Under the pieces are notes generated by a model. That model was given only the letters and a program-made list of their open reading frames with translations. It ran no database searches and was not told the origin of the DNA. A stretch of 64,000 nt of DNA from Paenibacillus spiritus. GTDB lineage: Bacteria; Bacillota; Bacilli; Paenibacillales; Paenibacillaceae. The translations under genes were made by a program, and so were the position numbers. Location: positions 62,001-126,000 of the forward strand of contig NZ_VYKK01000005.1 of NCBI RefSeq assembly GCF_008710135.1. Direction: 5' to 3'. Shown in pieces: positions 42,688 through 55,761 of the stretch. How positions within the stretch are numbered: position 1 is the first letter of the stretch; each line of letters opens with the position of its first letter.

Positions 42688-43812
42688 TTAATCGGTGCGA
42701 GGCGTCCTGGCGGGCTGGTCCGCCGGGGCGCCTTGTTCCGCATTCTCCCCGGGATTCGCCGATTCGGCCAGAGCGCGGCGGACCGCCTGCAAATAACGGT
42801 CCCCATGGTCTTCGTCAGGTTCCAGGAAGGCGCCTTCCGCCCATTCATTCCAGGCGTTCAGAAAGAGGAAGGGACTCTCATAGACCTCCCTGGCGCGTTC
42901 AATCTGCCGGGCGAGATAGCGCCCGAACTTCTCGGGGGTGCCGCCGAGCGTGCTCTGCCCGCGGGCTCCCTTCCGGGGGGTATTGTCCCAATCGACAAAT
43001 GCGCCGGGGTAGACCGGTTCTCCGTCCCGGTGCGGGCTGCGATCCAGAATGGAGCGCCACAGCTGATCGTAGTCCAGAACGAGCAGCTCGCCTTCCCGGG
43101 TGGGCACGGCGCTCCAGAGCTCCGGCGCTTCTCCCGAAGCGAAGGTATAATGCGGCTCGAATTCCAAGCTGGCGGCAAAACCCTCCGTCTTCGCTCCGGC
43201 CGGAAAGCCGCCGAGCGTTCGCACCACATGCAGGCCGGGCAGCCCCGCAGCCCGGGCCAGCCTCTGCCAGCATTCCAGCATTTCCGCGCAGCGGGGAATA
43301 TCGGCCGGGCGGTATAGGACGAACAGAGGCCTTCCTTCAACCCGGATGTACCGGGAATCAAGGAAGGCTTCCCGCAGGACATCGAAATGCCGGACCCAGT
43401 CTTCTTCCTCCCCGTAAGTCTGCGGCATCAGAACGTCGCTATCCATACCGTCCCAGCGCCGGGTCCAGGGCTCGTTGGCCCAGGAGAGACAGAAGGGGAA
43501 GTCCGGACGGCGCGTGGCCAGAATGGACTGCACCGGTTTCTCAAGCAGCCGTCTGCCTCCGCCGAACCAGTAATGATAGTAACAGAACCCGTAGATGCCG
43601 AAGCGCCGCGCCAGCATGGCCTGACGCTCGCGGACGGCGGCTTCCGTCAGGTTATAATAACGGCTTCCCAGCGGCACCTTCGGCTGGCGGTGACCGGGGA
43701 ACAGCGCCTGTGCCTTCCGGACATTCGTCCATTCGGTAAATCCCGGACCCCACCAGCGGTCATTCTCGGGAATCGCATGGAACTGAGGGAGGAGAAAAGC
43801 AATAATTTTCAT
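42688..43812 (-). CDS. WbsX-like glycosyltransferase/GH99-like protein
   Basis: 374 residues of the WbsX family (glycosyltransferase-associated, glycoside-hydrolase-99-like fold): AFLLPQFHAIPENDRWWGPGFTEWTNV at the N-terminus, FGIYGFCYYHYWFGG, PFCLSWANEPWTRRW and LFLNAWNEWAEGAFLEPD at the C-terminus. All are family hallmarks with acidic active-site candidates. No signal peptide. Its ATG overlaps the stop of the upstream gene (ATGA), so the two are coupled. Likely role in decorating surface or spore glycans. Confidence 0.88.
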   Translation of the reverse strand: MKIIAFLLPQFHAIPENDRWWGPGFTEWTNVRKAQALFPGHRQPKVPLGSRYYNLTEAAVRERQAMLARRFGIYGFCYYHYWFGGGRRLLEKPVQSILATRRPDFPFCLSWANEPWTRRWDGMDSDVLMPQTYGEEEDWVRHFDVLREAFLDSRYIRVEGRPLFVLYRPADIPRCAEMLECWQRLARAAGLPGLHVVRTLGGFPAGAKTEGFAASLEFEPHYTFASGEAPELWSAVPTREGELLVLDYDQLWRSILDRSPHRDGEPVYPGAFVDWDNTPRKGARGQSTLGGTPEKFGRYLARQIERAREVYESPFLFLNAWNEWAEGAFLEPDEDHGDRYLQAVRRALAESANPGENAEQGAPADQPARTPRTD

Positions 43813-44810
43813 CGTTCGTCCACCTGAGAGACCGCGGACAGCCGGGTCAGGAGCTTCATGCTCTGATTCAGTCCGGACCGGTTGTAACGAAGGTCGGCAA
43901 GCGCCCGGGAGGCCTGGGTCCGCCGCCGGTCGGGATCTTCCCAGTAGTGATGGAACAGCTCCCGGAGCTTCCCGCCGCTGTGGAATACAGCCAGGGCCGG
44001 ATTGTTCGCCGTGTAGTCGTAGAGAGCCGGATCATCCCGAATCAGCTGGAATGTTCCGCAGGCGCTTACGTTCTGCGCCGTTCCGAGCTTGCCTGAAGCG
44101 TTGATGACCATCCGGGCGCCGCTGAAATAATCGGCTTCTTCGGCGAGGGGGAGCGTCCCGTCCCGAATCCGCAGTACCTTTTTGTCCTCCAGCGGGAGTT
44201 CCTCCAGCCAGCGGTTCAGTTCCTTGTTCGAATAGTTCCCCTCCAGAATCAGAATATCCGAGCGGAACCCGGCATTTGCGGGACGCGGACGATAGAGGGC
44301 AGTGTCCGGAGGGAGAGGAAGGTAATGGACCCCTTCCGTACACAGAGCCCGGTAATTCGTGAGATTTGCGTAGCGCTGCGTGAACATAAAGTCGAACAAA
44401 GGCCGGGGGGTTGGAGTGAATCCGGCAGGCGTCTCTTCATCGCTCACCCAAGCTGCGCGGACAGCACCGGATGCAGCCAGCATCCGAAGATTGCGCTCCG
44501 GCAAGCCGCACCCGTCTCCGGTTACCAGCACCAGCTCCGGACGGGAGCTTCCGAGGTAGCGCTCCAGAGAATGTGTGTATTTAATGGTTACTACATCCCG
44601 AAGCAGATGCCGAAGCGGCTCCTCCAGGACGGGGACGAGCGAGGAGGCCGGCCCCCGCTCGGGGGCGATTAAGAGAATCCGCAGCTCCTTCCAGTTCCGA
44701 AGTGGAGTGGACCTGCGCCGCTGTCTTTCGCTGTCCGGCCGAAGGGCAGGTCTAAGATAGTGGCCGCGGAAGAGAGGGGATGAGGGGGAGAAGTCAGGCA
44801 TTATATTCAT
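43809..44810 (-). CDS. CgeB-like (DUF3880) glycosyltransferase
   Basis: 333 residues. After a basic, disordered N-terminus of about 45 residues, ELRILLIAPERG begins a GT-B type fold. FDFMFTQRYANLTNYRALCTEGVHYLPLPPD and the C-terminal ARMVINASGKLGTAQNVSACGTFQLIRDD match the CgeB/DUF3880 group; CgeB in B. subtilis acts in spore-crust glycosylation. AAAGGAG lies 8-9 nt before the ATG. It is divergent from the beta-repeat protein gene. Confidence 0.8.
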   Translation of the reverse strand: MNIMPDFSPSSPLFRGHYLRPALRPDSERQRRRSTPLRNWKELRILLIAPERGPASSLVPVLEEPLRHLLRDVVTIKYTHSLERYLGSSRPELVLVTGDGCGLPERNLRMLAASGAVRAAWVSDEETPAGFTPTPRPLFDFMFTQRYANLTNYRALCTEGVHYLPLPPDTALYRPRPANAGFRSDILILEGNYSNKELNRWLEELPLEDKKVLRIRDGTLPLAEEADYFSGARMVINASGKLGTAQNVSACGTFQLIRDDPALYDYTANNPALAVFHSGGKLRELFHHYWEDPDRRRTQASRALADLRYNRSGLNQSMKLLTRLSAVSQVDER

Positions 44811-45069
44811 CCGGCATGCTCCTTTTCACAAGAAGGCTCGCTTGTTTCTTCGAGACAGTGTATGAGCGGAGCGGATATTCAGTAAGGGGCAGCCGACCAT
44901 GCCCGGGAACGCATCTCCGCCGAAGCGGAGCTTCCAGATAGATGAATGTCCGAGCCCCGGTCCGTCCTTGGCGCATAGGGTATATCGTACCGAACGCGGC
45001 GGAACGGTGCTGCCGTTCTTCCGGCAACCGTGCAGGAAGTTCGAACACACAAGCGGGAGGATGGATGAA

Positions 45070-45579
45070 ATGCCTACATTCGACAATGTGCTGGTAACCG
45101 GAAGCCAGACCATCAATCAGGATTTGCAGGTCAATGGCAACCAGACAGTGCTCGGTTCATTCCAGGTGAACGGCAACGAGACCATTGACGGCAACTTCAA
45201 TGTCAATGGCAGCGAGACCGTGGATGGCAACTTCAATGTCAATGGCAGCCAGACGGTAGACGGTAACTTCAATGTCAACGGCAGCGAGACGGTGGCGGGC
45301 AACTTCAATGTGAACGGAAGCCAGACGGTCGGAACGCATCTCGGTGTTCTCGGAGAAGCCAGTGTCGGTGGCAGCATGACGGTAGCCCATCGGACCAATA
45401 TGACGGGGGTACCGACGGCTCCCGGTGCCGGTGCGGTCTCCGGCCTGCCGGTATTGTTCTATGCCGCAGCCGTTCCCAACCAGCCGGGTGTAATCGTGAA
45501 GGGAACCGATGGACAGAGCTACGTGCTGTTCGTGGACCTGACGAGCGGCGCGCCGACCCTGGCGATTCATCTGGCTTAA
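45070..45579 (+). CDS. beta-solenoid-type repeat protein, probable surface or spore protein
   Basis: 169 residues from ATG 45070 (GGGAGG 9 nt upstream); in-frame codons back to 44899 precede the ribosome binding site. Residues 12-107 are eight 12-residue repeats of the form SQTVDGNFNVNG with alternating small and hydrophobic positions, as in short beta-solenoids. The C-terminal 60 residues (GLPVLFYAAAVPNQPGVIVKG, YVLFVDLTSGAPTLAIHLA) form a globular beta cap. No signal peptide. The adjacent divergent glycosyltransferases suggest it may be a glycosylated coat or crust protein (inference). Confidence 0.8.
   Translation: MPTFDNVLVTGSQTINQDLQVNGNQTVLGSFQVNGNETIDGNFNVNGSETVDGNFNVNGSQTVDGNFNVNGSETVAGNFNVNGSQTVGTHLGVLGEASVGGSMTVAHRTNMTGVPTAPGAGAVSGLPVLFYAAAVPNQPGVIVKGTDGQSYVLFVDLTSGAPTLAIHLA
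45103..45390 (+). repeat. eight 36-bp repeats coding for a 12-residue beta unit
   Basis: Tandem units coding for [S/N][Q/E]T[V/I]xGxFxVNG. Copies 3-6 are nearly identical at DNA level (GGCAACTTCAATGTCAA recurring); the outer copies have diverged. Confidence 0.9.
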
Positions 45580-45600: not shown

Positions 45601-45644
45601 AAAGGCGGCAGGGAGCTCCCGTGAGGGGACTCTCTGCCGCCTTT
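45601..45644. terminator. bidirectional terminator
   Basis: 15-bp stem (45601-45615 with 45630-45644, one G:U) between convergent genes, with a run of A residues on the left serving as the minus-strand T-run. Confidence 0.9.
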
Positions 45645-49187: not shown

Positions 49188-50132
49188 GTGAGAAGGAACT
49201 CGGTGGTCATCAGGTTGGGATTTTTGCTGGGGTGCTTGGTCCTGCTCTCGGGAAGAAGCGGTCTAGCTTCTGGTCTAGGTTCAGCCCTTCCGGGGAGTTA
49301 TAAGTATGATGACAATGGAAGGCTGACTTATTTTGAATCTTCAGAGGGCTATATTTTCTATGAGTACGACAGGAACGGGAATTTGCTCAAAAAACGAATC
49401 AAGGGTTTTGGGGATCTGGAAACTCCGACAGGCGCCGATCAAATTGTGACCGGCCTGAACGTGAAAGGCTGGCACCTCGACAAGACAGGCATTCAGAGCA
49501 TCAAAATTTATTTGAATGGAACATACCAGGGTTTGGCAAGCTACGGAGATCCGCGTGAGGATATTTACAGCAAGTATCCTAAGTTTGGCAACCACAATTC
49601 GGGATTTCACTATAACATCAGTCTTCCGAAACAGAATGCATCCTATGAGGTTAAGACAGTGGTCCGAAACAATGGCGGCGAAGAAACCGTTTATACCAAG
49701 TCTTTCCGATTCGTAGCCTTGAACTCTGTCGGACATCTAGACTCTCCTTCGGAAGGGGTAACCGTATTCTATTATTTAAGATATCCCAATACAAATTACA
49801 CGCGTATGACGGTAAGCGGATGGCAGTTGGACACGGAAGGGATCAAATCTGTCCAAGTTTATTTGGATAATAATTACATAAAATCAGGAAGTTTGACTGT
49901 CTCAAGGTCGGACGTTAAGGCGGCCTACACTCAATATAATCAGAGCATAAGCGGCTATGCAATTGATTTGGATCTTCCTGTGGCCGGGAATGGAGCCGCT
50001 GGACAGACCGCTGCCCATCAAGTGAAAGTGGTTGTAGCCAATATGAAAGGCGAACTCTCCACTTACGTGAGGAATTTCGTGGTTAAAAATTCCAATCAGT
50101 TTTTTGAAGTGGGACCTTCTGGCCAAAACTAA
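49188..50132 (+). CDS. secreted protein with YD repeat and GBS-Bsp-like domains
   Basis: 314 residues from GTG 49188 (GGGAG 12 nt upstream). Signal peptide to about residue 28, then one YD/RHS repeat (YKYDDNGRLTYF, YFYEYDRNGNLLKK), then two GBS_Bsp-like modules of about 110 residues (GWHLDKTGIQSIKIYLNGTY and GWQLDTEGIKSVQVYLDNNY). It precedes the giant RHS protein by 49 bp on the same strand. Probably exported with it; role unknown. The 260 bp upstream, after the fumC terminator, contains no other gene. Confidence 0.82.
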   Translation: MRRNSVVIRLGFLLGCLVLLSGRSGLASGLGSALPGSYKYDDNGRLTYFESSEGYIFYEYDRNGNLLKKRIKGFGDLETPTGADQIVTGLNVKGWHLDKTGIQSIKIYLNGTYQGLASYGDPREDIYSKYPKFGNHNSGFHYNISLPKQNASYEVKTVVRNNGGEETVYTKSFRFVALNSVGHLDSPSEGVTVFYYLRYPNTNYTRMTVSGWQLDTEGIKSVQVYLDNNYIKSGSLTVSRSDVKAAYTQYNQSISGYAIDLDLPVAGNGAAGQTAAHQVKVVVANMKGELSTYVRNFVVKNSNQFFEVGPSGQN

Positions 50133-50181
50133 GCTTATACATTCAAATAATTGAAAATATAAAGAGAACTGGGGAAAAGAA

Positions 50182-53100
50182 ATGATAAAAACAAGCTTAA
50201 TCAAAAAAGCCGGTGTTGCTCTGTTAGCACTTCTTTTGCTTGTACCTGAAATGGGTGTGTTTGCTGCCGGAGGTACAACGGCAAAAGCTGTACCGGTCAG
50301 CATCGCTGCACCGCTTGAAATACCGAAACAGGAACCTCCAAGTTCAGACGGCTCGTACTCGGCTCCATCGACTATACCGGAAAACCTACCGGTTAGCCGT
50401 TCGGTTTATTGGACGAATGCTAAGGATCGCGGTGTCCTGTCTTCTGAACAACTGGCTGAGATGTCGCTTACTTTAAAGAATACGGATGCCCGCATTCTCA
50501 GAATTAAGGACAAATACGCCGGTTCAGGGAAAATGAAAAACGGCATGGCAGCCTCTAACTTGGGCGCCGCAGAGCCTCGCTTGTCCGACGAGCAAGTCCG
50601 CTCGCTCATGCTTCAAGGGGCCACAACGGAAGATGTATTCGAAGCCGCCTACTTGGCTCGGGAGACCGGGTTAGACCCGATCGAACTGTACCTCCAGAAG
50701 ACAAAGTCTCGAAAGTCCTGGGAGGACCTTAGAACGGTCAAACAACGCGAGAACAAGATCTCGGCCGAGAAGACGGGGAATGTGACTGGTTCGGTATATG
50801 CTTCCTCCCTTGACGTCACTGGCGATACCGGTCAGTTCGAAAATGCTTTGCTGAAGGCGGCAGACGCTAGTCTCATAGCCAATTCACCTTTGACAGCCCA
50901 GATCAACGGGGTTATTAAAGACTTTGCCTTGGAGAGCATTAAGCAACTCAGTAAGCCGCAGTATTCGGATCAAGATGCAACTGCTGAAACCGTCGATCCA
51001 ACTTCCACTTCTTTGATTTGGAAATCAACTCAAATCAGTCTCCCCGGGCGAGACGGGTTAGACTTAAATCTTGGCGTCATGTATAACTCAACTGACAGCG
51101 AAATGGAGCAAGTCAATTTTAACAACACGATTTATAATTTGGGGACAGGCTGGAGCTTTCGCTTTCCTTCCATACAACCGGCACCCGACAACAAATATTA
51201 CTACCGGGACGGGGAAGGGTCTATCTATGAATCAACCTTTTCAGCCAATGATACTGGATTAGAGGCCTACACGCATCTCAAAGGATACAAAGGGAAAGAT
51301 CGTCAGCTTGTTCAGGATCTGGACCATTCTTATTCCAACGGACAATTCAGCTCTACCTACTATATGGAGTATCCTGACAAGAAAAGAGAGTATTTCGGTG
51401 GACCCAATAATCGATTGCTGGCTATAGTAGATCGGTTCGGTAATACGATTACTTTTCGATATTCTCCCGAAGGCATGCTCAGTTATATTCAGGATACTGT
51501 AGGCAGAAAGATGACGTTTACTTATGACAATCAGGCGGTCTACTCTGTTGAGAACAATAATGCAAACCCGATAACCGAGAAGCTGGTCGTCCAAGTCTAC
51601 GATGCCTCCGGAAGTCCGCAGCAAAAGGTTACTTATTCCAGAATTCGTGTCGGACATACTTTTATTAATGGCCACCCTGACGGAGTGATTGACCGATACT
51701 GGGCAGGCACCCCATTTATACAGCTTCAGTCCATTACGCTCCAATCCGGCGAGGAGATTAACTTCAGACATTATGATAATTACTATTTGTATCATCCGAC
51801 CTTAAAGACTTCAGACGTTCGGGATCCAGATACGGGATTCTTGTATTTTGATCTGCTCTCCAGTGTGGAATATACACATTCCCAGAGTGTGTTCGTCTGG
51901 GGTGACCTTCCGGGCAACCTCATGGGAAAAGGAAACATCCATCATCCGAGCATCACGGAGAGATACGATCAACTGAAGAAAGGCAGCGGTTTTAGCGGAA
52001 AGTACAATGATCTGAGTTACGAACATGACAGGTATTCTGACGGGTACCCCGATTACTTCAAAGACGAATATTCCAGTTCTATCCCCGATACGTATACCTA
52101 TTCAACAATCATTAAAAATCTGAACGGCCAACGGACGACTACTTATACCTTTAATAATAAGGACCAATTGATGACAACTAAAGCAGAGGCCGCCAACGGT
52201 GAAAAGATCATTGATAAAAACACCGGCTTTCATGCTGTCTTTACGCAATCTCCCACGACCAGCGAACACTGGGAATATGGTATTGGCGACACGGATATTA
52301 CCGCTAATAAGCTTTACTCTGAAACTTCATATGATGACCTGGGATATGTGACATCTACAACCCGTCCAGTGACCGGGGAACAATGGGCCAATCCGACGTT
52401 GAGGGGGAAAAACACTACCACTTACGAATATGACAGCAGCTTTCACTTGATAAGCCGCAAGACCTGGTACAAAAGCGAAAGCGATCCTTTGCCTCTTACA
52501 GAAACTTATCTGTACCATAATGGGGGGGATAAGTCCGGCCGACTGGAAACATACACCGGGCCCGATGGAACCACAGGGTTCACTTACGAGATGGTACAAG
52601 ACGGAGGGGCGGGCGGAAACAAAGTATCCAAAGTGACTGCCATACGAACCGCGGGGGGGAAGCTGGCCTCCCGGTCAGTTACGACTTTCGGATCCGAGTA
52701 CGGGTATGCCTATCCGACCGTAATACAGCAGCTGTTCAATGTAAGTTTGCCTACGGAGAAAGCAATCACAACTACTAAAAAATATGATGCTGCAACAGGT
52801 CTGGTCACGGAACAGAAAGACAGCAACGGTCAAACGACGAACTATGACTATGACAATCAGGGACGAATCAAGAAGATTACATACCCCAAAATGATCAGCA
52901 ACGACAACGGTACGCCATATCAGGATACCGAAGAATACAATTATTACCCTAACATGGTTTCGGATCACTTTGACGAGACAAATGCGGGAATTCATGTACT
53001 AAAGGTGGACACCTTCAAGATCCGCACCCAGCTAACGAGCGGAGCCAAATCCATTACTTACTGTAATTACTTGTATAATGGTTTGGGGATGCTGCTAACC

Positions 53101-55761
53101 CAAGAGCAATGGGATGAATACCAGGCAAAATGGACCTTCGACCAATTTCATTACAATGAATCCGGGCAAGCTACCTACGCCAAGGATAAGAGCGGAAACA
53201 CAGTAACTGCAGGCTATGACGTCTGGGGACGGCAGAATCTGGGCGTGGACGAGTTCGCTAACCGATATATCTCAGAGTATGACCTGAAGCAACGGAAAAC
53301 GACCAATTATAGGATAAGTGCGGCGGACGGGAAGACATGGAATCGGGTAGAAGAGACCCAAAATCCATGGGGACAAGTGACTTCTCGGACAACGACTTAC
53401 ACGGATCTTCATCAGAAAGCCCAAACGATTTCTGAGCAATATCGCTATGATCTTGCCGGAAATCTTACCGGTTACACGGATCCCAACCAGAATATGAACG
53501 AGGACGGAGTGACAACCAGCTTTGTGTACGATGGCCTGAACCGCTTGGCTCAGGTGAAGAATGCCCTGAATCAAAGTACGTTCTATATCTATGACGGGAA
53601 CAATCAGATCACCAAGGTCAGTATGCAGGAGAAAGGCGGCGCTCCGCAGACCTTGAAGACGGGTGTCTATAATGAAGTCGGCCTGCCAATTGCTAAACAG
53701 GACGGACTCGGTCAAAGCGAATCACTCAGCTATAACAGCATGGGGCAGTTGGAGCAACGAACAGACCGCAACAGTACCGTGATTTCCAACCATTACAATG
53801 AAGCCGGAGTGTTGGACAAGACAGTATGGAGTGGAACAGTGAACGGAGCGGCAGCGAACCGGGAAGTTCGGTTATTTCTCGGTGACAGCCGCGGAAGCCG
53901 GTACAACACGACAAGATGGTACGACAATAACGTCGCGGCCCCGTCAGTGTCCCAGACCAATCTTTTTGACAGTCTTGACCGTTTACGCTGGGTAGATTCC
54001 CAAGGAAACGGCTATTCATCTCAGTTGAACCTGAAAAGAGATATATTGGGTCAGGTGATTCAGCAGATCAGTACGAGCTCGGCTTTCGGCAATTTCTATA
54101 CCAACTACACGTACAACAAAACTCGGGTAGAGACCGTTCAGACAGATGGAAAGGAAGTACCCAGCGGAAATGAGACGGCCAAAGCCTGGTATACGTATGA
54201 AGGCAACGGGTTGGTCAGCTCCATCCGCTACCCGCTGCTCAGCGATGGAACTACGCTGAAAGCCGTCTTTGTACATGATGCCAATTTGAACTGGCTACAG
54301 CAGGTGACGAATACCAAGGGGGACAATGTCCTAACCAAGTATGAGTATGAGTATGATTGTAACGGGAATATCATGAAGGTGACGGAACAAGGTAGCGACC
54401 GTATGGCGCGTTGGAGCATGTATACGTACGATGCGCTGAATAGGCTGAAGACGGTTACTCGCTCGGACGGCAGCGCAGCGGAGTATATGTACGACCTTAG
54501 AGGCAATCGCAATACCTTGAGCGATACTTCACCAGGAAGCACGGATTTCTCAGCGGTCAGTTACTCCTATGATCTTATGAACACCTTGACGGGGCTCACG
54601 AAAAACAACGTCTCTACCAATTTCGCATATCTGCCGGACGGACTGCGATATCAAAAATCCAGCGGGGGTAATACGACGCAGTATGGCTATAACGCAAATG
54701 GCGAAGTGGTCACCGAAACAAAAGGAAATGAGAAGGCAGAATATGTCCGTGGCGATCGTTTACTGGTGAAGAAAGACGTCACCATTAGTACGGCGGTGAA
54801 GGACTATTACTATCTTTACAACGGGCACGGCGATGTAGTCCAAATCGTGGATACAACCGGGAAGGTGCTTAACAGCTATGGCTACGATGAATGGGGGAAT
54901 CTAACAAGCCAAATAGAGGGCATCTCGAATTCGTTCAAATATGCGGGTGAGATGTACGACGATGAGACAGGGTTGTACTATCTACGTGCGCGCTATTATG
55001 ATCCAGGAACTGGACGGTTTTTAAATGAGGATACGTATGAAGGGCAGATTGATAATCCGCTGTCGTTGAATCTTTATACGTATGTGAGCAATAATCCATT
55101 GATTTATACGGACCCGACGGGACACCGAAAAGCTTCAGACAACGACGAATTGGCTGGTTATACGCAACAATATGCTGACGACTATGAAAAGGCAAAGCGT
55201 AACGGTGATAAAGAGGGTATGGTTTATGCTGAAAAAATGGCAGATACTATGCGAGTTTCATATTATCGTATGTATGGATTAGAAGTTCCTTCAGATGTCA
55301 AGTACACTGATGCTAGTCTTAAAATGCAAAAAGCATTTAGATTTGGATATTTCACGTATATAGCAGCTGCCAGAATGCCACCTCAAAGTTTTTTTAATGG
55401 AGAGAGTCCTTTAAACGTTGCTTATCTTACTAAGAATCCGGAATTTATAGCGAACCTAGGTCCTGATAATGTTGCTAAAATATTCCAAAATGAAGGTTTT
55501 GAGGTTACCAAGGCTACGCTTAATAGTGGCAATGGTGTTAAACTAATGATTAAAGGTAATCAAATTAATTACATTCAGTTTTCTAACGGGGAAGGCAGAC
55601 ATGGAGTTCCATATATAAAGGTGAATGGAAATGAAATTAAGGTTAAAATTGTTATTGGAAACCCTGGGCAATATAAGGGCAACGTTCAAGAAGAAATTAA
55701 AACTGGAACTAGATTCTACTGGCTAGAAGGAAATCAATATAAAGGATGGAGAGGGGAATGA
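50182..55761 (+). CDS. RHS/YD-repeat polymorphic toxin (WapA-like)
   Basis: 1859 residues. The Sec signal peptide (1-29) predicts export. Residues 30-270 are a helical and Pro-rich leader. Residues about 275-1600 form the YD-repeat shell (YDVWGRQN, YDGLNRLAQVKNALNQ, YNANGEVV and many others). Residues 1599-1648 are the RHS core, ending PLIYTDPTGH, which fits the PxxxxDPxG self-cleavage boundary. Residues 1649-1859 are the variable tip: a linker (AEKMADTMRVSYY) then an unassigned toxin domain. Codon composition turns AT-rich right after the core, as usual for exchangeable tips. The stop overlaps the immunity start. No LPxTG anchor is present. Such proteins kill neighbouring cells on contact. 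Confidence 0.93.
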   Translation: MIKTSLIKKAGVALLALLLLVPEMGVFAAGGTTAKAVPVSIAAPLEIPKQEPPSSDGSYSAPSTIPENLPVSRSVYWTNAKDRGVLSSEQLAEMSLTLKNTDARILRIKDKYAGSGKMKNGMAASNLGAAEPRLSDEQVRSLMLQGATTEDVFEAAYLARETGLDPIELYLQKTKSRKSWEDLRTVKQRENKISAEKTGNVTGSVYASSLDVTGDTGQFENALLKAADASLIANSPLTAQINGVIKDFALESIKQLSKPQYSDQDATAETVDPTSTSLIWKSTQISLPGRDGLDLNLGVMYNSTDSEMEQVNFNNTIYNLGTGWSFRFPSIQPAPDNKYYYRDGEGSIYESTFSANDTGLEAYTHLKGYKGKDRQLVQDLDHSYSNGQFSSTYYMEYPDKKREYFGGPNNRLLAIVDRFGNTITFRYSPEGMLSYIQDTVGRKMTFTYDNQAVYSVENNNANPITEKLVVQVYDASGSPQQKVTYSRIRVGHTFINGHPDGVIDRYWAGTPFIQLQSITLQSGEEINFRHYDNYYLYHPTLKTSDVRDPDTGFLYFDLLSSVEYTHSQSVFVWGDLPGNLMGKGNIHHPSITERYDQLKKGSGFSGKYNDLSYEHDRYSDGYPDYFKDEYSSSIPDTYTYSTIIKNLNGQRTTTYTFNNKDQLMTTKAEAANGEKIIDKNTGFHAVFTQSPTTSEHWEYGIGDTDITANKLYSETSYDDLGYVTSTTRPVTGEQWANPTLRGKNTTTYEYDSSFHLISRKTWYKSESDPLPLTETYLYHNGGDKSGRLETYTGPDGTTGFTYEMVQDGGAGGNKVSKVTAIRTAGGKLASRSVTTFGSEYGYAYPTVIQQLFNVSLPTEKAITTTKKYDAATGLVTEQKDSNGQTTNYDYDNQGRIKKITYPKMISNDNGTPYQDTEEYNYYPNMVSDHFDETNAGIHVLKVDTFKIRTQLTSGAKSITYCNYLYNGLGMLLTQEQWDEYQAKWTFDQFHYNESGQATYAKDKSGNTVTAGYDVWGRQNLGVDEFANRYISEYDLKQRKTTNYRISAADGKTWNRVEETQNPWGQVTSRTTTYTDLHQKAQTISEQYRYDLAGNLTGYTDPNQNMNEDGVTTSFVYDGLNRLAQVKNALNQSTFYIYDGNNQITKVSMQEKGGAPQTLKTGVYNEVGLPIAKQDGLGQSESLSYNSMGQLEQRTDRNSTVISNHYNEAGVLDKTVWSGTVNGAAANREVRLFLGDSRGSRYNTTRWYDNNVAAPSVSQTNLFDSLDRLRWVDSQGNGYSSQLNLKRDILGQVIQQISTSSAFGNFYTNYTYNKTRVETVQTDGKEVPSGNETAKAWYTYEGNGLVSSIRYPLLSDGTTLKAVFVHDANLNWLQQVTNTKGDNVLTKYEYEYDCNGNIMKVTEQGSDRMARWSMYTYDALNRLKTVTRSDGSAAEYMYDLRGNRNTLSDTSPGSTDFSAVSYSYDLMNTLTGLTKNNVSTNFAYLPDGLRYQKSSGGNTTQYGYNANGEVVTETKGNEKAEYVRGDRLLVKKDVTISTAVKDYYYLYNGHGDVVQIVDTTGKVLNSYGYDEWGNLTSQIEGISNSFKYAGEMYDDETGLYYLRARYYDPGTGRFLNEDTYEGQIDNPLSLNLYTYVSNNPLIYTDPTGHRKASDNDELAGYTQQYADDYEKAKRNGDKEGMVYAEKMADTMRVSYYRMYGLEVPSDVKYTDASLKMQKAFRFGYFTYIAAARMPPQSFFNGESPLNVAYLTKNPEFIANLGPDNVAKIFQNEGFEVTKATLNSGNGVKLMIKGNQINYIQFSNGEGRHGVPYIKVNGNEIKVKIVIGNPGQYKGNVQEEIKTGTRFYWLEGNQYKGWRGE

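Follow-up and report, generated by a model that had tools for sequence, protein, structure and literature searches.

Three adjacent genes in the window, that is, the whole analysed stretch of 64,000 nucleotides from the 4.3 Mb genome of Paenibacillus spiritus, probably constitute one late-sporulation cassette, which would encode a spore-surface glycoprotein made by the mother cell together with two dedicated enzymes. The products are a 12-residue-repeat protein (R), a CgeB-like glycosyltransferase (C), and a WbsX enzyme (W). Comparison of genome sequences shows the three genes to be a unit. We infer from sequence the glycosylation and the fold of R as well as its place on the spore.

Organization of the three genes

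The R gene, on the plus strand, faces the C and W genes, which are both on the minus strand (Table 1). The preliminary description of this DNA had reported a 12-residue-repeat protein facing a pair of CgeB-like and WbsX-like genes, and this description was confirmed: the span 42688-45579 covers the three genes. The ends of C and W overlap, with 4 bp common to both. The inverted repeat on the 3' side of R was recognized by eye and might act as a terminator in both directions; it was not reported by the terminator scan, which covered only loops of 3-8.

Table 1. Positions of the three genes and associated features in the window
Feature	Position	Strand	Basis and remarks
R, 12-residue-repeat protein	45070..45579	+	169 aa; ORF; start codon next to PTF(D/N), conserved in relatives
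R repeat stalk, eight 12-residue units (about residues 7-102)	45088..45375	+	unit register; 36-bp DNA array
R C-terminal domain (residues about 111-169)	45400..45576	+	shared by all aligned proteins but one (15 of 16)
C, CgeB-like glycosyltransferase	43809..44810	-	333 aa; PF13524 below cut-off, homologue matches, GT-B-like model
W, WbsX enzyme	42688..43812	-	374 aa; PF14307
CATAGGGTA, weak sigma-K-like -10 match at -96 of R	44974..44982	+	place differs from that in relatives
Inverted repeat 3' of R, possible two-way terminator	45604..45642	.	by eye

Conservation of the trio in related genomes

Profiles of R and C, together with the W protein, served as queries against 392 genomes of the order, and matches not more than 4 kb apart were joined. 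The matches used extended down to an E value of 3.3e-15 for R and 1.9e-61 for C, and had at least 51% identity for W. W places with 37-42% identity, as well as a partial match of 50% in G031, were left out; second pieces of split matches were not counted, and C places are those among the matches listed. R is present in 58 of the 392 genomes, in addition to one decayed fragment (G035). The proposal that the three genes occur together elsewhere was tested in this set and was not refuted: both C and W lie within 4 kb of R in 56 of the 58 R-carrying genomes, C being taken from the matches listed. G250 has a C-like gene that was detected by tblastn below the threshold used for the count, and in G200 R and W were present, with no C among the matches listed. 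W with at least 51% identity was found without R in 9 of the 67 W-carrying genomes, one of which (G312) has C adjoining it.

The trio is divergent in 31 and convergent in 25 of the 56 genomes, and R is always on the strand opposite to C and W. Among the matches listed, several chromosomal neighbourhoods hold the trio. G000, G001, and G007 share one neighbourhood with the gene order <R>C>W; G018 has similar neighbours and the order >C>W<R. Since two arrangements and several chromosomal neighbourhoods were found, function rather than inherited position seems to keep the trio together.

A search across the class detected R in 12 of 299 genomes, and these 12 all belong to the window's own family. 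Among 80 named loci, R or C lies beside W in 9 and all three genes are present in 7; these loci overlap with the genome set and are not independent of it, and the counts come from related genomes. Strain XY044 (L077) has C and W without R, and H1-7 (L082) has R and W without C. A decayed cassette was observed in G004 (L156): the R sequence is distributed over two frames and W is fragmented, with the C frame open. The other 28 of the 87 genomes matching the R profile gave weak R-like matches. Ten weak places in nine genomes, including G035, which is counted among the 59, were considered as possible R genes and rejected, as they appeared by eye to be other repeat proteins; several of the weak places examined are in phage-like neighbourhoods.

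Start site, repeats, and predicted fold of R

The best start of R is the ATG at 45070, because a start codon directly adjoins PTF(D/N) in 54 of the 58 loci examined. The same observation argues against the long ORF from 44899, and an in-frame alternative ATG is found at 45061. The start codon in the 54 loci is TTG in 35, ATG in 13, GTG in 4, and CTG in 2. It should be mentioned that a non-ATG start, mostly TTG, was thus used in 41 of the 54 loci (L154-L247); it may restrain translation of R.

The start is followed by a conserved PTFD sequence, and no signal peptide was visible by eye. Each 12-residue unit of the stalk is hydrophobic at positions 1, 3, and 9. Position 5 is Gly in 213 of 224 units, and position 8 is Thr or Ser in 197 of 224. 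The conserved Thr may have a structural role. The variation in repeat number that had been anticipated was found between species: the number of units in strict register ranges from 1 to 8 in 54 R proteins, window R being at the upper end with 8. At the DNA level, Tandem Repeats Finder located 4.4 copies of a 36-bp period at 45169-45326 with a score of 204. The small C-terminal domain is common to 15 of the 16 aligned proteins, the exception being R of Paenibacillus sp. H1-7, in which this domain is of a different kind.

The AlphaFold monomer model of R, calculated with 8 sequences, had a mean pLDDT of 56.8, and no strands were formed in the repeats. For this reason the fold was predicted from the sequence, in which the V-x-G rhythm suggests that the stalk is a β-solenoid or a trimeric β-helix. 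The best match of the R profile among the PDB sequences was an LpxD acyltransferase (E value of 0.0038).

The repeats of R resemble phage fibres and, weakly, bactofilins. If the former resemblance reflected descent, R would be a remnant of a phage fibre. The repeats match phage families (phrog_5070 with an E value of 1.7e-11, 14 of 16 members) as well as 50 of 50,697 phage records. However, it is chiefly the repeats that the listed matches cover. For the C-terminal domain no phage match was obtained at E<=1, and among 95 viral-contig stretches no relative of this domain could be confirmed. In addition, no phage genes were seen by eye beside the cassette in the neighbourhoods among the matches listed. 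A phage origin is disfavoured and seems very improbable.

The main rival of the glycoprotein model is that C and W make a separate spore glycan, which R anchors as an unglycosylated scaffold in the form of a bactofilin-like polymer. Bactofilins and hexapeptide β-helix proteins have a V-x-G repeat rhythm close to that of R, with weak matches; a weak resemblance to bactofilins was seen in 5 of 16 R proteins, the best E value being 5.2e-05. The linkage of the three genes in 56 of 58 genomes is also compatible with this scaffold. On the other hand, window R scored 15.9 bits against the bactofilin family PF04519, below the cut-off of 27.9, and differs from bactofilins in having its own C-terminal domain and other gene neighbours. 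Retention of Thr or Ser at one position of the repeat would be left unexplained by an unglycosylated scaffold, unless this residue is structural. We consider the scaffold model unlikely.

The enzymes W and C

W matches the Pfam family PF14307 (Glyco_tran_WbsX) over its full length, from position 1 to 350 of the 350 positions of the profile, with 424.6 bits (cut-off 25.1). Among the matches listed, its nearest named relatives are from Paenibacillus and Cohnella. A NAWNEWAE-type motif is conserved in 54 matches from 54 loci, and calls to mind the paired glutamates of GH99 enzymes. Only a single weak match, with an E value of 0.077, was found among the PDB sequences.

C of the window scored 23.5 bits against PF13524 (Glyco_trans_1_2), for which the curated cut-off is 25; all 13 aligned homologues match this family at E<=0.01. 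No match to C was found among the PDB sequences at E<=0.1. The AlphaFold model of C (mean pLDDT of 75.5) resembles GT-B transferases: the best Foldseek match had an E value of 2.0e-08 and a TMq of 0.57, and the best matches are proteins that we take to be GT-B transferases. Judged from its homologues and its GT-B-like predicted structure, C is probably a divergent member of the CgeB-type transferases. The residue preceding the ACG motif is Glu or Asp in 11 of the 13 aligned homologues, whereas it is Asn in window C, which means that the conserved acidic residue expected of a CgeB-type transferase is missing at this position. The C enzyme of the window may be altered.

Promoter-like elements upstream of R

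The letters CATANNNTA are taken here to be the sigma-K -10 pattern. Gene starts were placed by rules specific to this analysis, and the promoter counts leave out 4 of the 58 R loci in which no start was assigned by the pattern (G004, G160, G222, and G234). In 47 of the 54 genomes, a CATANNNTA element begins 25 to 60 bases ahead of R, at -35 to -41 in 46 of them and at -48 in one. The corresponding number was 5 of 252 for control genes of the same loci, and a Markov null gave an expectation of 0.68 in 54. The upstream sequences of relatives are not independent, and hence similar regions were grouped into 19 sequence clusters, of which 16 have the element. In the window, R has no element of the CATANNNTA type between -60 and -25, and the only match is at -96.

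In B. subtilis, dpaA is under the control of sigma-K. The dpaA family, found in 23 of the genomes at 28 loci including paralogues, was used as a positive control. ACC-N16-CATANNAT is present in 21 of the 28 dpaA loci. CATANNAT occurs between -60 and -25 in 20 of the 28 dpaA loci and in 43 of the 54 R loci, and is the shared core. The strict CATANNNTA is found in only 7 of the 28 dpaA loci. Upstream of R, in contrast to dpaA, the -35 place is occupied by ACC in only 4 of 53 cases. GerE-like boxes were not enriched upstream of R (13 against 13.8 expected). Such elements are also visible before the C gene in many loci, although the automatic choice of the C start was poor. According to PMC12826061, 100% of the Paenibacillus genomes surveyed there have SigK, and the sigma-K motif is described as two blocks with a spacing of 14-16 nt (PMC517825).

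The upstream sequences in the relatives support expression in the mother cell during sporulation, the window copy being an outlier. The system had earlier been proposed to be a spore-surface glycoprotein system. This proposal is partly supported, by the conserved trio and the sporulation-type promoter-like elements of the relatives, but the window copy, without the element at the usual place, does not share in the latter support. Alternatively, R and both enzymes might serve the surface or capsule of vegetative cells, the promoter-like element being a coincidence of shared ancestry. Relatives of WbsX proteins are widespread (at least 592, many of them outside spore formers), and a sigma-70-like match (3 were found, where 0.8 would be expected) lies on the minus strand at 44829-44800, though it overlaps the start of C. 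However, shared ancestry does not readily explain recurrence of CATANNNTA in 16 of 19 diverged upstream clusters, and the lack of a visible signal peptide in R also disagrees with a vegetative role, which we regard as distinctly unlikely.

Proposed function and comparison with known systems

The reading of R as a spore-surface glycoprotein is based on the lack of a visible signal peptide, the promoter elements in relatives, the Thr/Ser stalk, and the two private glycan enzymes. The mother cell would make R in its cytoplasm, late in sporulation, as a modular protein consisting of the conserved N-terminus MPTFD, a stalk with a variable number of 12-residue units, and a small C-terminal β domain. 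The stalk should fold into a β-solenoid or trimeric β-helix. The GT-B transferase C and the WbsX enzyme W would add sugars, most likely to the stalk at its Thr/Ser ladder, and the resulting glycoprotein would be deposited on the outer spore surface. Glycosylation of R by C and W is proposed because of the linkage of the genes and the presence of this ladder.

The cgeAB-cgeCDE genes of the B. subtilis crust are similar to the cassette in that a gene for a small protein lies beside that for a CgeB-type transferase; this likeness is by description, not by sequence. CgeA is described as a possible target of glycosylation, and the nine candidate transferases of the crust include CgeB (PMC10502511, PMC7439481). 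The cassette differs from the CgeA/CgeB system in that the repeats of R are solenoid-like and WbsX is the partner enzyme. The BclA glycoproteins of the exosporium are composed of an N-terminal part, a repeat stalk, and a C-terminal domain, and R resembles them in this arrangement, including the variable length of the stalk. The modular layout of BclA is described in PMC11952670. Neither a collagen repeat nor a BclA-C/C1q domain was found in 16 R proteins among the matches at E<=1. By analogy, R would work like CgeA/CgeB or BclA, outside the collagen family. F-ENA endospore appendages (DUF4183) are reported as spore-surface fibres on a Paenibacillus isolate (PMC11952670); DUF4183 had no match in the 16 R proteins at E<=1. 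A wbsX gene from Burkholderia is described in PMC13391952 as encoding an O-antigen glycosyltransferase. W is similar to such enzymes as a full-length PF14307 protein, but it is paired with C and R instead of belonging to an O-antigen cluster.

More tentatively, the cassette might represent a new family of spore-surface filaments in Paenibacillus-type bacteria, in which a Thr/Ser-studded β-solenoid replaces the collagen stalk of the BclA type and is accompanied by its own two-enzyme glycosylation kit, as a minimal portable module. A cassette of one candidate substrate with two enzymes would provide a simple handle on the sugar-coating of spores. It might also offer a compact natural tool with which to glycosylate proteins and to make repeat proteins of adjustable length. 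The titles and first parts of abstracts listed in searches of the open-access literature contained nothing on the R/C/W cassette, and little about the outer spore surface in Paenibacillus and Cohnella.

WbsX genes without R were also observed near collagen-like genes, some with Cys-rich N-termini (L083, L086, L167, L249, L254, and L255). Collagen-like neighbours were found at 6 of 18 WbsX loci without R and at 5 of 54 R loci (Fisher p 0.023, uncorrected), where the locus lengths are unequal and the 5 R loci are perhaps from one clade. A link of R-less WbsX with collagen genes was set aside as too weak to rely on, given the uncorrected p value and the unequal loci. Elsewhere in the window, a 36-bp tandem repeat is present at 1862-2160 (8.3 copies, score 381). 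At 49188-55761, a protein of 314 aa with matches to Big_7 and, weakly, to RHS precedes one of 1859 aa, which by eye resembles RHS/YD-repeat proteins.
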